Assembly: GCF_007004735.1 (NCBI RefSeq)
Contig: NZ_SSNL01000004.1
Span: forward strand, 496,001-560,000
Origin: Salinigranum halophilum
GTDB taxonomy: Archaea > Halobacteriota > Halobacteria > Halobacteriales > Haloferacaceae
DNA length: 64,000 nucleotides
Reading direction: 5' to 3'
In this document: in pieces, positions 16,829 through 50,691 of the stretch
How positions within the stretch are numbered: position 1 is the stretch's first letter
Layout of the letters: every line of letters begins with the position of its first letter
Notes under the pieces: model-generated
The model's input: the letters and a program-made list of their open reading frames with translations, nothing else
What the model was told of the DNA's origin: nothing
Database searches by the model: none
Made by a program: the position numbers and the translations under genes

Positions 16829-17968
16829 TCAGGACTCGTTGTACCAGACGTCGACGTGGGTCGTCGGCGCGTACGACTTGCCGACGAGGTCAGGGCGTCC
16901 GTCACCGGTGAGGTCGACGGCCTTCGCCTCGTGCGTCGGGACGCCCCGGGAGATGCGCGTCTCGGTGAAGCCCGTCGAGTGCGGAGAGAAGACGACGATT
17001 TCGGCGTCGTCGTTGCCGCCGAGCCCCATCTCGGCGACACAGATATCCGGACGACCGTCTCCGTCGAAGTCGGCGACCTGGACGGTGTGAGGGTTCGAGA
17101 GGTCGTCTCTGAGCACTGTCCCCGACCAGTCTCGCGGGTCGAAGACGCCGAGTCGCCCCGGCACGTCGCCGTTGTACGGGCGGTCGCCCTCTGTGAGGAC
17201 GATTTCGGGACTCCCGTCGTCGTCGACGTCCGCGACGGCGACGCGGGTCCACTCCCAACCGGGCGCGAACTCCTCGCGCACCCAGCGGCCCTCACGGCGG
17301 GCGAAGACGTTCGGCCCGGCGACGAGTTCGTTCTCGCCGTCGCCGTCGACGTCGGCGATGGCCGCCCCTTCCACGGAGAGGCCCTCCGCGACGACGTGGC
17401 GGTTGGCGACCGGCCACGGCTCTCGGCGCGGGTCCTCGGGAATGTCGTAGTAGAAGACTGTCTCGCTCTCCTGTGAGAGCGCGACCACCTCGTCGTCGCC
17501 GTCGTTGTCGACGTCGCCGACCACGACGTCGTGGTACTTCACGAAGTCGTCGGTGACGAGCCGTCGGGGCCAGGGGTCGCGGGAGTCCGCCGGCTGTTCG
17601 AACCAGTACAGGTCGGTGTCGAGGTTCTGCCCGGTCACGAGGTCCTGACTGCCGTTTCCCGTGAGGTCGGCGAACGCGCCGCCGACAGAGAGGTCCGGGG
17701 CGCGTCCGACGTCGTGTCGCGCCCAGCCCGAGTCGCGGTTCTCGTACCAGAACACGTTGGTCTCGAGGCGGTGGATGAGCTCGCGCGTGCCGGGGAGGTC
17801 CCGGAGCGAGAGCGTCTTGCCGACGACGGGAACCGTGACCGTCGGCTTCCCGCCGACCGCGCCGACGAGGACGTCGGGGAGCCCGTTACCCGTGAGGTCA
17901 GTCGTGAGACAGAACGACATCCGACCGGCGGGTGGGTCGGTGTCGATCCGCTCGTGGCGGAACTGCAT
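16829..17968 (-). CDS. FG-GAP/VCBS repeat beta-propeller protein
   Basis: A 379-residue protein made of about seven repeats carrying calcium-loop motifs such as DLTGNGLPDVLVG, DLTGNGSQDLVTG, DVDNDGDDEVVAL, DVDGDGENELVAG, DVDDDGSPEIVLT, DFDGDGRPDICVA and DLTGDGRPDLVG. These are FG-GAP/VCBS-type blades of an integrin-alpha-like propeller. No signal peptide or anchor is visible from the ATG at 17968; a longer frame reaches 18037 but adds only a charged stretch. Function unknown; propellers of this kind often bind ligands or act as lyase scaffolds. It is codirectional with the cohesin gene 115 nt upstream. Confidence 0.8.
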   Translation of the reverse strand: MQFRHERIDTDPPAGRMSFCLTTDLTGNGLPDVLVGAVGGKPTVTVPVVGKTLSLRDLPGTRELIHRLETNVFWYENRDSGWARHDVGRAPDLSVGGAFADLTGNGSQDLVTGQNLDTDLYWFEQPADSRDPWPRRLVTDDFVKYHDVVVGDVDNDGDDEVVALSQESETVFYYDIPEDPRREPWPVANRHVVAEGLSVEGAAIADVDGDGENELVAGPNVFARREGRWVREEFAPGWEWTRVAVADVDDDGSPEIVLTEGDRPYNGDVPGRLGVFDPRDWSGTVLRDDLSNPHTVQVADFDGDGRPDICVAEMGLGGNDDAEIVVFSPHSTGFTETRISRGVPTHEAKAVDLTGDGRPDLVGKSYAPTTHVDVWYNES

Positions 17969-17992
17969 ACCACCCACTCGGGCAGGTCCCTC

Positions 17993-18003
17993 GTTAGTTA
18001 TAG
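17993..18003 (-). promoter_or_regulatory. TATA box of the FG-GAP gene
   Basis: On the minus strand the sequence reads CTATAACTAAC, 25-35 nt before the ATG at 17968. The position predicts a leaderless transcript and an independent promoter downstream of the cohesin gene. Confidence 0.5.
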
Positions 18004-18082
18004 TCGGTGTAACGTCACGACGCGCCCGTGGCCACACAGCCTCCCGGGTGTGACGGCGTCCCGGGCGGCGGTTCGGCGTCGC

Positions 18083-19492
18083 TCACTCCCGCCGGGTCAA
18101 CAGATACCCGAAGAGCGGGGCCACGAACGCGAGGACGACGACCGCGAGCGGGACCGGATAGCCGAACGTCGTCGACGTGACTGTGGGCGTCGCCGTCGGT
18201 TCGGGCGTCGTCCGTGTCGCCGTCGCGGCCGCTGTCCGTGTCGCCGTCGGCTCGGGCGTCGCTGTCGCGGCCGGCGTCCGTGTCGCCGTCGGCTGCTCGG
18301 TCGTACGAGTCACGGCGAAGAGACCGAACTCCGAGACGTTCGTCCGGAGTGTCACCGTCGTGTCCGTCGTCCGCGTCGTCCCGTCGACCGTGACCCAGTC
18401 GCCCGACTCCGGTCGATACCGCTCGACCTGCAGTCGGTCACTGTCGGCGTCCAGTCCCGACCGCGCGAGCGTGACCGTGAGCGTCCCGGGCTGGTCGGCG
18501 ACGGCGTCCGGCGCATCGATGTCGAGGACGGTGACGACGGTGTCGTAGTTGCGGGGGTACTCGGTGTCGGCCGGCGGCCGGCTCAGTTCGGCGACCTCGT
18601 AGGGACCGGCCGTCTCCTCGGAGAAGCCCAGGTCGACGGTCGTGACGGTCGGACTCGCCCCGCCGAAGTCGGCACTCACCGCCGAGCCGCCGAGCATCGT
18701 GTTGGACACCGCGACGATGGTCCGCGGCCCGAGGAGACCGCCACCCCCACCACCTCCGCCACCGCCACTACTGACGACGGCGTCGTCATCGTCGTCGTCT
18801 TCCGGGGTCGCAGTCGGTGTTGCAGTCGACGTGGTTGTCGACGTTTCTGTCGATGTCGCCGTCGGCGTGGCGGTCGGTGTGGCTGTCGATGTGGCAGTCG
18901 ATGTCGCCGTCAGCGTGGCTGTCGACGTTTCTGTCGGTGTTGCCGTCGGTGTGGCAGTCGGCGTCGGCGTCTCGGCCGACACCACCGAGACGGTCGTCCC
19001 GACGTACCGGTCGACACCGAGTTCGTTCGCCCCGCCGTCGGAGAGTTCGGTGTCGCCCTCCTCGAAGACGAGCGACGTCTGGCTCCCCGCCGCCCCGACG
19101 AGTTCGAGCGTGAGGCGGGCGAGGACCGGGTCGTCGGTGCCGGAGTCGCGGAGTTGGTTGAACGCGACCACTCCGGCGTCGGTGTCGACGCGAGAGACCG
19201 GTTCCGCGAAGTCGGCGGTCCCCGACACCGAGACCACCCGGACGACGTCGGGGTCGTACGAGAGGCTCGACTGGTAGCCGGCGACGTCCGAGGCGTTCGC
19301 CCAGACCGTCACGGTCACCTCGTCGCCGGGTCGTGCCGACACCGCGTCGGCAGTCGCAGACGGGGACGACCCGACGGTGATAGTTGGGGTGGCGGTCTGT
19401 GCCCCGACAGGCCCGACACCGTAAACGCCCGCCGTCACGACCACCAGACAGACCGCGAGGGCGGCACCGACCCGCAGGGCGAGGCGGGTCAT
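18083..19492 (-). CDS. Cohesin-domain surface protein with C-terminal membrane anchor
   Basis: A 469-residue exported protein. A signal peptide (residues 8-31, ending VGAQ) precedes a cohesin-like beta-sandwich at about 37-172, with the typical pattern VTVWANASDVAGYQSSLSYD and later VLARLTLELVG. A Thr/Pro-rich linker (about 176-228), a run of Asp and a run of ten Gly follow. A PGF-pre-PGF-like domain (about 255-400) ends in NVSEFGLFAVTR. A second Thr/Pro linker leads to a final transmembrane helix and an Arg-Arg-Glu tail. Cohesins bind dockerins; the dockerin enzyme is encoded by the overlapping upstream gene. The anchor lacks a clear PGF tripeptide, so archaeosortase processing is uncertain. 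Confidence 0.85.
   Translation of the reverse strand: MTRLALRVGAALAVCLVVVTAGVYGVGPVGAQTATPTITVGSSPSATADAVSARPGDEVTVTVWANASDVAGYQSSLSYDPDVVRVVSVSGTADFAEPVSRVDTDAGVVAFNQLRDSGTDDPVLARLTLELVGAAGSQTSLVFEEGDTELSDGGANELGVDRYVGTTVSVVSAETPTPTATPTATPTETSTATLTATSTATSTATPTATPTATSTETSTTTSTATPTATPEDDDDDDAVVSSGGGGGGGGGGLLGPRTIVAVSNTMLGGSAVSADFGGASPTVTTVDLGFSEETAGPYEVAELSRPPADTEYPRNYDTVVTVLDIDAPDAVADQPGTLTVTLARSGLDADSDRLQVERYRPESGDWVTVDGTTRTTDTTVTLRTNVSEFGLFAVTRTTEQPTATRTPAATATPEPTATRTAAATATRTTPEPTATPTVTSTTFGYPVPLAVVVLAFVAPLFGYLLTRRE
18740..18970. repeat. Low-complexity coding repeats (poly-Gly, poly-Asp, Thr/Pro)
   Basis: Trinucleotide-like runs encode the Gly and Asp tracts (about 18740-18800) and 6- to 12-nt repeats encode the Thr/Pro/Ala linker (about 18806-18970) of the cohesin protein. 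They are in-frame repeats and can vary linker length without a frameshift. Confidence 0.7.
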
Positions 19493-21342
19493 CGGTCGCT
19501 CCGTCTGTCGTCGATTGCGACGGCGTCCGCGATGTCGACGTCACCGTCCCCGTCCACGTCGGCGGCCGACTCGTCGATGGCGTCGTCGTAACCGGCGAGG
19601 TGGCGCTGGACGAGTTCCACGTCGTCGGCGTCGACGTCGCCGTCCCCGTCTGCGTCGCCCGCGGTGGGTTCGTCCTCCGGGGCGGTGTACCTGACCGTGA
19701 GCGTCGGCGGGACCACCCCCTCGCTCGCCGCGAAGTCCCAGCCGTCGTCGCCGACGGGGAGGAACGCCCAGCCGTGATTCGGTGCGCCGTCGAGCCACGC
19801 GCCGACGCTCGCGGTCACGTCGAGCGCGGTCGGCCCCTCCGAGACCGACCCCGTGGTCGTCACCGGGTCGGCCGCCGCCTGCGTCCCGTCGGCCTGGACA
19901 CCGTCGCCGAGGCGCTCCCAGGTGTCGTCGCCGTCCCACGGTTCGAGCATCCGGTGGACGGCCGCTCCGTCGCCGTCGTCCGTCGTCTCCAGCGTGAGCG
20001 TCGCGCTCACCACGGTCGCGCCGAGGGGTACCTGGCCGGCGTCGGCACCGACGACGTCGGCGAACCGTATCAGTGCGTGGACGGCCTGTCCGGTCCCCAG
20101 TGGCTCGTCGCCGTCGACGTTGAGTGTCGTGGCCGACGTCCCCGTCGACGTCGGCTCGGCCTCGCGGACGTCGGTGTCGGTCGTCCCGTCGTAGCCGTCC
20201 GTCCCCTGTCGGAAGGTGACGGACTCGGTCGTGTCGAACGGGCCGAACCGGGCGTCGAAATCGAGGTCGAACCCGAACTGGCTGCTCTCGTCGGTCGCGT
20301 ACTCACCGCGGGTGGGCGAGTAGGTCTCGACGGCGAGGCGGTCGGCGTCGCCGCTCCCTCCGCCGGGTTCGAAACGGAGCAGTCGGAGCCAGCCGTCGCC
20401 GCCGCGGTCGTAATCCTGGTAGTTCGCGACCATCTCGTAGACGGCGAGTCCGGCGTCGTTCGTCGACGTCTGGTGGTACTCCCCCGTGGCCGTCCCCCCA
20501 CGGTCGTGAAAGTGGCCGTTGAGGACGGCGAATATCTGCGGGTTCGGCGCGACGAGTTCGCGCCACACCGTCTCGCCCGCGTTGCCGTTCCCGTTCGCCT
20601 CCTGGACGACGTCGGCACGCTCGCCCGGTTCGTCTCGGAGGTACGAGTGCGTCGTGAGCATCGTCGGCCGGTCGGAGTAGCGGTCGAGGACCTCTTGTGC
20701 CCAGCCGAGCGTCGTCGAGGGGTCGTCGACCCGACCCGGAGGCTCCCACTCTAGGGCGAGGTGGAGAAAGTCGTAGCCGCCGCCCGAGAACAGCTGGTAG
20801 GTGCTGAGGCCGTCGTCGCCGGGTCCGTTCCCGCCGAACCAGCTCCGTCCCTCGAAGCGCGAGGGACCGAAGTACTGCTCGTAGAGCGCGGTCGACGAAC
20901 CCCGGTCCCACAGCGTGGCGTAGTCGTGATTCCCCGTCACGACCGAGTACGGGAGTTCGCCGTCGAGCGTCGACATCGCATCGTCCATCCGCTCCCACTC
21001 CAGTTCCCGGTCGCCGTTGTCGACGATGTCTCCCTCGTGAGAGACGAACCGGATGTTCTCCGCCTCGCGGTTGTCGAGGATCCACTGCGTCTGTGCCGCC
21101 GGAATCGACGCGCGGCGCGCCCGCTCGGCGTACTTCTGGGTGTCGGGGAGCGCGACGACCGTCCACGGGTCGCCGGGGGCCGCCTCCGTCTCCCCGCTCG
21201 AAACCAGCGGTGCCGTCGACACTACACAGAGCGCCCGTAACAGCGTCCGCCTCGACAGTGTGCGCCCGCCCCCTCCCGTCCCGTCTTCGGACACGCCCCG
21301 GTCGGAGGCGTGCCCAGTCGGAGTCCCTGAAGCGAATGTCAT
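19489..21342 (-). CDS. Secreted metallophosphoesterase with DNRLRE-type domain and C-terminal dockerin
   Basis: A 617-residue enzyme. A twin-arginine signal (LSRRTLLRALCVVS, residues 29-42) directs export. A calcineurin-like phosphoesterase domain (about 55-340) has LPDTQKY, GDIVDNG, TGNHDYA, TTHSY and NGHFHDRG as metal-site motifs. A DNRLRE/CBM96-like beta-sandwich spans about 385-555, and residues 560-617 form a type I dockerin with two calcium loops (DADGDGDVDADD and DVDGDGDVDIAD). The stop overlaps the start of the cohesin gene by 4 nt, so both are made together. Role inferred: a phosphatase or phosphodiesterase docked to the cell surface through the cohesin. Confidence 0.88.
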   Translation of the reverse strand: MTFASGTPTGHASDRGVSEDGTGGGGRTLSRRTLLRALCVVSTAPLVSSGETEAAPGDPWTVVALPDTQKYAERARRASIPAAQTQWILDNREAENIRFVSHEGDIVDNGDRELEWERMDDAMSTLDGELPYSVVTGNHDYATLWDRGSSTALYEQYFGPSRFEGRSWFGGNGPGDDGLSTYQLFSGGGYDFLHLALEWEPPGRVDDPSTTLGWAQEVLDRYSDRPTMLTTHSYLRDEPGERADVVQEANGNGNAGETVWRELVAPNPQIFAVLNGHFHDRGGTATGEYHQTSTNDAGLAVYEMVANYQDYDRGGDGWLRLLRFEPGGGSGDADRLAVETYSPTRGEYATDESSQFGFDLDFDARFGPFDTTESVTFRQGTDGYDGTTDTDVREAEPTSTGTSATTLNVDGDEPLGTGQAVHALIRFADVVGADAGQVPLGATVVSATLTLETTDDGDGAAVHRMLEPWDGDDTWERLGDGVQADGTQAAADPVTTTGSVSEGPTALDVTASVGAWLDGAPNHGWAFLPVGDDGWDFAASEGVVPPTLTVRYTAPEDEPTAGDADGDGDVDADDVELVQRHLAGYDDAIDESAADVDGDGDVDIADAVAIDDRRSDR

Positions 21343-49551: not shown

Positions 49552-50691
49552 ATGCGGTCGACGAGCTACGACTTCTTCGACACGCTCACACTGAGCATCC
49601 GGGGTACCGGTGGACGTGCCGTCACGCAGTTACGCGAGATGTACGACCACTTCGAGGTGCCGAGCGTCGACGACCCCGACGTCGTCTGCGAGCTCACGAC
49701 GGTCGAACCCGACCCCGAGGCGGTCCTCGGCGGGCCGGAGAACTACTACGGCCGCGAGGGTGACGCGTTCGTCATCCGAACCCCGTCGGGGTTTCTGCGG
49801 ACCGACACCGACCTGACACGGATTCAGACGTCGCCCAACTGGGAGCCCTTCTGGACGATTTATCTCGTCGAGTTCCGCATCCGACGACGGCTGGCCGATC
49901 GGAATCGGGCGCTCGTCCACGCCTCCGGGGTCGAACTCGACGGCCACACGACCCTGTTCCCCGCGTGGCGCGGGGCCGGAAAGACGAACACGCTGTTGTC
50001 GCTGTTGCGGGCGGGCGGTGACTACCTGTCCGACGACCGCCTCTGGGTGGGCGCGGACGGGAGCGTCCAGGGGTATCCGCTGTCGGTCAACATGCAGCCG
50101 TACAACCTCGAGTCGTTCCCCGACCTCACGCTCGACGACGAACCGGACGAGGGGATTCGCCAGCGGGTCAGCGACTACATCGACGCCAACTGTGAGGTGG
50201 GTGGCTCGGTCGTCGAGAAGGGGCTGGTGTTCCTCAACCGATACTACCTCGAAGCGGACGGTCGCAGTTTCGTCGACGTCGAGGAGATGCTCCCCCACAC
50301 GACGTACGTCGATACCGGCACCGTCGACGACGTGGTCGTCCTCCAGGCGGCGCCAGACGCCGACAGCGTCTCCGTCGAACCCATCTCGCCGCGGGAGGCG
50401 GTCACGGAGACGGCGACTATCTCGTCGTACGAGTGGAACGCCCGCCTCCGCGAGTACTTCATGGCGCTCGACAGTCTCTTTCCCAGTCAGGACCGGGCGG
50501 GCGAACTGGAGACGCTCATCGACACCGAACGGCGGGTCTTCGACACGCTGTACGAGCAGACCGGCACGTACCGAGCGTCGATTCCGCGCGACCGGGACTG
50601 GAACACGACGGGCATCAGCCGACAGGTCGTCGAGGCGGTCCGCCGACTGAACACGCAGGCCGACGACGCGACGGTCAGCCGACAGCACTGA
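49552..50691 (+). CDS. HPr-kinase-like P-loop protein
   Basis: A 379-residue cytoplasmic protein. A P-loop PAWRGAGKTNTLLS spans 137-150, preceded by LVHASGVELDG, and LSDDRLWV (159-166) gives the acidic pair. This order (HASGV, P-loop, LSDD) is that of the HPr kinase C-terminal domain and of HprK-like proteins in glycan and peptide-maturation clusters. No HPr partner gene is nearby. Such proteins may phosphorylate a Ser/Thr or sugar hydroxyl. The N-terminal 115 residues are not recognised. It ends the glycan region. Confidence 0.8.
   Translation: MRSTSYDFFDTLTLSIRGTGGRAVTQLREMYDHFEVPSVDDPDVVCELTTVEPDPEAVLGGPENYYGREGDAFVIRTPSGFLRTDTDLTRIQTSPNWEPFWTIYLVEFRIRRRLADRNRALVHASGVELDGHTTLFPAWRGAGKTNTLLSLLRAGGDYLSDDRLWVGADGSVQGYPLSVNMQPYNLESFPDLTLDDEPDEGIRQRVSDYIDANCEVGGSVVEKGLVFLNRYYLEADGRSFVDVEEMLPHTTYVDTGTVDDVVVLQAAPDADSVSVEPISPREAVTETATISSYEWNARLREYFMALDSLFPSQDRAGELETLIDTERRVFDTLYEQTGTYRASIPRDRDWNTTGISRQVVEAVRRLNTQADDATVSRQH

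Follow-up and report, generated by a model that had tools for sequence, protein, structure and literature searches.

A dockerin-tailed metallophosphoesterase and a membrane-anchored cohesin protein form a candidate surface-docking unit in haloarchaea

The window, a stretch of 64,000 nucleotides from Salinigranum halophilum, contains two overlapping genes that most probably (at a rough probability of 0.78) specify a one-to-one surface-docking unit, in which a phosphoesterase would be held at the cell surface by the cohesin of its operon partner. The enzyme is probably retained there without a covalent bond, because its relatives either keep dockerin and cohesin together or lack both. The enzyme, P0002 (617 aa; 19489..21342, minus strand), is composed of a Tat signal, a Metallophos domain, a DNRLRE/CBM96-type module and a dockerin. 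Its gene runs into that of P0001 (469 aa; 18083..19492, minus strand), which consists of a Sec-type signal, a cohesin, a Thr-rich linker, a beta-rich domain and a C-terminal TM helix. The genes share 4 nt, as had been noted in the original prediction, of which the coordinates, strand, overlap and loop sequences were all exact; the shared bases are the start/stop sequence ATGA at 19489..19492 (minus strand). An overlap of 4 nt was present in 16 of 19 homologous pairs, and translation of P0002 and P0001 would be coupled through it.

The cohesin of P0001 was recognised by the Pfam model (PF00963) over residues 46-160 with an E-value of 1.4e-9 and a score of 38.7 bits, the cut-off being 24.1. In an AlphaFold2 model of P0001 this domain had a pLDDT of about 95 and adopted the jelly-roll fold of cohesins with a C-terminal helix. 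Comparison with solved cohesins (Foldseek / VIA-align) gave 4uyp_A as the top match (Z 17.2), and Archaeoglobus fulgidus 2xdh could be superimposed at 1.9 A over 124 residues (Z 16.2); the likeness in sequence to solved cohesins was weak (profile E 9.8e-6). The module (residues ~34-174; 18971..19393, minus strand) is separated by the Thr-rich linker from the beta-rich domain (~258-398), which is followed by the TM helix (449-466) and RRE. The C-terminal hydrophobic stretch with its basic residues reads TTFGYPVPLAVVVLAFVAPLFGYLLTRRE. Such an anchor, a hydrophobic stretch followed by basic residues and often of the PGF type, was found in 17 of the 19 cohesin proteins. In the other two (L059:4427-4948, minus strand, and L061:6758-7807, plus strand) the anchor is missing, apparently through a loss of frame within the Thr-rich repeat or ahead of it, and an assembly error or phase variation may be the cause. 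The cohesin-like domain that had been proposed was thus confirmed by profile and by fold, and the C-terminal helix is its predicted surface anchor.

The enzyme was resolved into modules in the same way. Metallophos matched at ~58-367 with an E-value of 1.8e-7 (32.3 bits; Pfam cut-off 21.5), and DNRLRE_dom matched a module at ~375-552 above the NCBIfam cut-off (E 1.3e-11). The latter is considered to be of the carbohydrate-binding type, because a close paralogue of P0002 matches Pfam CBM96, the equivalent of the DNRLRE model, at 8e-16. The modelled structure of P0002 resembles purple acid phosphatases and GpdQ (1ute, 2dxl), with which it has in common the fold and the dinuclear-metal motifs (GD, GNHD, H and GHxH) of calcineurin-like metallophosphoesterases (PF00149), here D67, GD104-105, GNHD137-140, H232 and GHFH276-279. 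It differs from these enzymes in that the first metal motif is D-x-Q in place of D-x-H and in the possession of the extra glycan-binding-type module and the dockerin. Among 19 relatives, 5 have an incomplete GHxH motif. Dockerin_1 (PF00404) matched residues 561-610 (19513..19662, minus strand) over positions 1-52 of its 57, with an E-value of 1.5e-6 and 28.8 bits against a cut-off of 22.9. Both EF-hand-type Ca2+ loops are intact, DADGDGDVDADD at 563-574 and DVDGDGDVDIAD at 595-606, and loop positions 1, 5, 9 and 12 are occupied by Asp in all or almost all of the 19 relatives. The enzyme is therefore what it had been taken for, a metallophosphoesterase with a DNRLRE domain that ends in a two-loop calcium dockerin.

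The pairing of the two modules was studied across the family (GTDB f1; 170 genomes, the named relatives being Halogranum and Halobellus), where the enzyme is present with and without a dockerin. The enzyme loci were fetched and every frame was searched with models derived from the two modules of the window's pair, and cohesins were searched for in the genomes with the Pfam cohesin profile. A conserved-peptide search based on the enzyme alignment returned 7 loci, 4 of which were bacterial dockerin matches because one of the two peptides was a dockerin motif. Nineteen dockerin-bearing copies of the enzyme were found in 16 Haloferacaceae genomes of 7 genera, and in 19/19 the enzyme gene was directly followed by a cohesin gene. 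None of the 8 dockerin-less paralogues had an adjacent cohesin gene (Fisher p 6.4e-7 for 18 vs 8 loci, related sequences being treated as independent and with no phylogenetic correction). The possibility that these paralogues are lipoproteins was rejected, as no lipobox was found in them. On the enzyme tree the dockerin/cohesin label changes 3 times, and at least 2 of these changes are required by branches with good support. G045x is the most informative example: it has neither dockerin nor adjacent cohesin, yet is sister (99/97) to the dockerin-bearing G045. The adjacent ligand-receptor pair of the original prediction is hereby strengthened: because the coupling is conserved and both elements are absent together in the paralogues, a pairing of dockerin and cohesin, as judged from sequence, is strongly supported and goes far beyond what adjacency would allow to be concluded.

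Chance adjacency was ruled out by a family-wide count. Of 66 cohesins, 46 lay near a same-strand dockerin (within about 1.5 kb), including some that share one protein with the dockerin (upstream matches), against 0.08 expected within 1 kb. Between the end of a dockerin and the start of the cohesin there were typically 150-200 nt, which corresponds to the start of the next gene plus its signal peptide. The pair itself is patchily distributed, as is expected for an accessory surface locus; the other three genomes of the window's genus (G165, G166 and G167) gave neither an enzyme nor a cohesin match.

If the two genes were neighbours for the sake of co-regulation only, the dockerin of P0002 could bind another cohesin and the adjacent cohesin could hold another cargo. 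Cross-binding is possible because the genome contains a second dockerin/cohesin locus, L073 on C4, and encodes a third protein with a terminal dockerin, L074 on C2. At the C4 locus (L073:4417-7907, plus strand; G000:C4:92416-95906) a PhoX-like phosphatase of the Tat type has cohesin-dockerin at its end, and its gene is followed by an anchored-cohesin gene, whose product, with its C-terminal anchor, was matched by the model built in this analysis and not by Pfam. The C2 protein (L074:6756-9089, minus strand; G000:C2) is a choice-of-anchor-I protein that also ends in cohesin-dockerin, and no cohesin gene comes after it. An exchange of partners is nevertheless unlikely. Dockerin and cohesin are jointly present or absent at 27 loci, and a model of the C4 cohesins does not pick up the cohesin family of the window, which implies that the two cohesin lines have diverged. 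Moreover, in G039, G040 and G042, which have two pairs each, the paralogous pairs retain their own partner lineages and no partner swapping was seen. The distance matrices of enzymes and cohesins were correlated (Mantel r 0.81, p 1e-4); part of this agreement comes from the co-inheritance of neighbouring genes alone. Beyond the enzyme tree the correlation between dockerin and cohesin was modest (partial r 0.24), which is too weak for a claim of interface-specific co-evolution.

Less probable still is the absence of any docking, the dockerin-like tail being a Ca2+-stabilised terminal module of a secreted enzyme in high salt and the cohesin a generic surface beta-sandwich. Haloarchaeal dockerins have been mentioned, without cohesins, as presumed substrate-binding modules (PMC10963439, PMC13260240), and 111 of 150 dockerins among the family matches listed had no cohesin nearby, so a dockerin by itself does not predict a pair. 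However, this would leave unexplained why in the present enzyme family the dockerin tail occurs only beside a cohesin gene.

The preferred reading, a docked enzyme, had originally been accompanied by the claim that the partners have matching export routes. The sequence motifs contradict this: a twin-arginine (Tat) motif was found in 19/19 enzymes (in P0002 as RRTLL at residue 31) and in 0/19 cohesin proteins, which have a hydrophobic N-terminus, in P0001 a Sec-type signal. The two routes are consequently predicted to differ, and it is more likely that a Tat substrate is captured outside the cell by a Sec-exported anchor. The phosphoesterase would leave the cell folded, by Tat, and the cohesin protein would be exported by Sec and stay anchored through the membrane helix at its C-terminus, with a predicted and probably glycosylated Thr-rich spacer between helix and cohesin. 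Given the identity of the modules and their co-conservation, the Ca2+-loaded dockerin would then be expected to bind the cohesin of its operon partner, and the enzyme would be retained at the surface rather than lost to the brine. Should this be true, enzymes and anchors are joined despite their predicted passage through different translocons, and the unit represents a Ca2+-dependent haloarchaeal surface display that works in near-saturated brine and possibly a salt-stable affinity pair.

That the pair is the remnant or the beginning of a multi-enzyme scaffoldin-type complex is very improbable, for although multi-cohesin scaffoldins and dockerin-tailed proteases occur in another haloarchaeal genus, P0001 contains a single cohesin, each homologue has one clear cohesin (in L065 a second stretch matches marginally, E 2e-4) and no multi-cohesin protein turned up when the genome was searched. 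Membership of a cellulosome was rejected as well: besides the single cohesin there is no scaffoldin, the dockerin set of the genome includes no cellulase and the cargo is a metallophosphoesterase, not a plant-cell-wall hydrolase. The unit is thus non-cellulosomal, as had been suggested. It shares with the clostridial cellulosome (type I cohesin/dockerin) the two module families by Pfam and by fold, and differs from it in that each anchor bears one cohesin, that a cellulase and a cellulose-binding scaffold are lacking and that its location is an archaeal surface.

The idea of an adjacent pair is not new in itself, because in A. fulgidus the products of the neighbouring ORF2375 (dockerin) and ORF2376 (cohesin, 2xdh) are cited as binding each other specifically and strongly and have been used for surface display (PMC9705933). 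The two genes in the window resemble this pair in being adjacent archaeal genes with a single cohesin, a dockerin on the first protein and a non-cellulosomal nature. They differ in that the dockerin is carried by a recognisable Tat-exported phosphoesterase, that the cohesin protein is membrane-anchored, and that the unit is found repeatedly among haloarchaeal genera, where paralogues lacking the dockerin offer a natural contrast. In ANME archaea many dockerin and cohesin domains occur, and a role in fastening functional proteins to the outer layer of the cell was proposed for them (PMC9012536). Surface attachment is suggested for these archaeal proteins as for the window's, but the ANME cargo consists mainly of substrate-binding proteins and some proteins have several cohesins, in contrast to the present pair, in which one enzyme is matched with one cohesin from its own operon. 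No account of paired haloarchaeal cohesin/dockerin genes was found in a literature search, and earlier mention of haloarchaeal modules in older reviews is possible. The concept was known from A. fulgidus, and what is new is a predicted haloarchaeal surface-docking version with an enzyme cargo, differing predicted export routes and the repeated occurrence of the arrangement with PhoX or subtilases as cargo. What is added is an enzyme-specific docking unit, presumably translationally coupled, that is conserved over haloarchaeal genera and comes with the contrast of its paralogues. Most earlier mentions of non-cellulosomal cohesin and dockerin modules concern scattered domains for which no role had been demonstrated. 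As the dockerin-bearing enzymes always occur with a cohesin and the dockerin-less ones never do, the docking hypothesis becomes a simple question of binding between two proteins in genetically accessible organisms.

Other cargoes appear to be treated similarly. In relatives (L086, L088-L092) the gene after that of a subtilase with cohesin-dockerin encodes a further cohesin protein, and this order, which is also that of the C4 locus, recalls ORF2375/2376 of A. fulgidus. A class-wide search further revealed multi-cohesin scaffoldin-like proteins in genus g45 (G196 and G300; family f4). The one in G300 (L104:7162-13425, minus strand) has 2087 aa, a Sec-type signal, 14 cohesins and a PGF-type anchor, and about eight dockerin-ended subtilases (Peptidase_S8) lie in about 36 kb of the region (L104, L105; G300:C1:74000-112000). 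The version in G196 (L103:1566-5342, plus strand) has 8 cohesins and is accompanied by several dockerin-ended subtilases (L102, L103; G196:C1:466000-496000). From its domain composition this looks like a haloarchaeal protease scaffoldin, which would form a cellulosome-like multi-protease complex at the surface; no publication on it was found in the literature search. We lean towards the broader view that haloarchaea generally employ operon-encoded pairs to hold hydrolases exported by Tat or Sec (phosphoesterase, PhoX, subtilases) non-covalently on Sec-exported membrane anchors, one lineage having scaled this up to multi-cohesin protease scaffoldins independently of plant-polymer degradation.

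The best guess for the target of the enzyme is a phosphorylated surface or extracellular glycan, which is tentatively suggested by the DNRLRE/CBM96-type module, by the surface-glycan genes around the pair and by a recurrent HprK-related kinase. The pair is surrounded in the window by genes for a nucleotide-sugar dehydrogenase, a UDP-GlcNAc 2-epimerase, an aminotransferase, a hexapeptide transferase and glycosyltransferases. Alternatively, such surface-polymer neighbourhoods may be just where accessory surface genes accumulate. An HprK-related P-loop kinase was found within about 5 kb in 15/18 relatives vs 0/8 control loci; in the window it is located at about 49552-50691 (plus strand), about 28 kb from the pair. 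This kinase family (for example L055:6937-8115, minus strand, and 14 other loci) had no Pfam match and matched TIGR04355/TIGR04352 weakly. Directly downstream of the cohesin gene (16829-18037, minus strand) lies a gene for a repeat protein of the FG-GAP/VCBS type, rich in D-x-D-x-D-G motifs of the Ca2+ type, a homologue of which was nearby in only 1 of 18 relatives.
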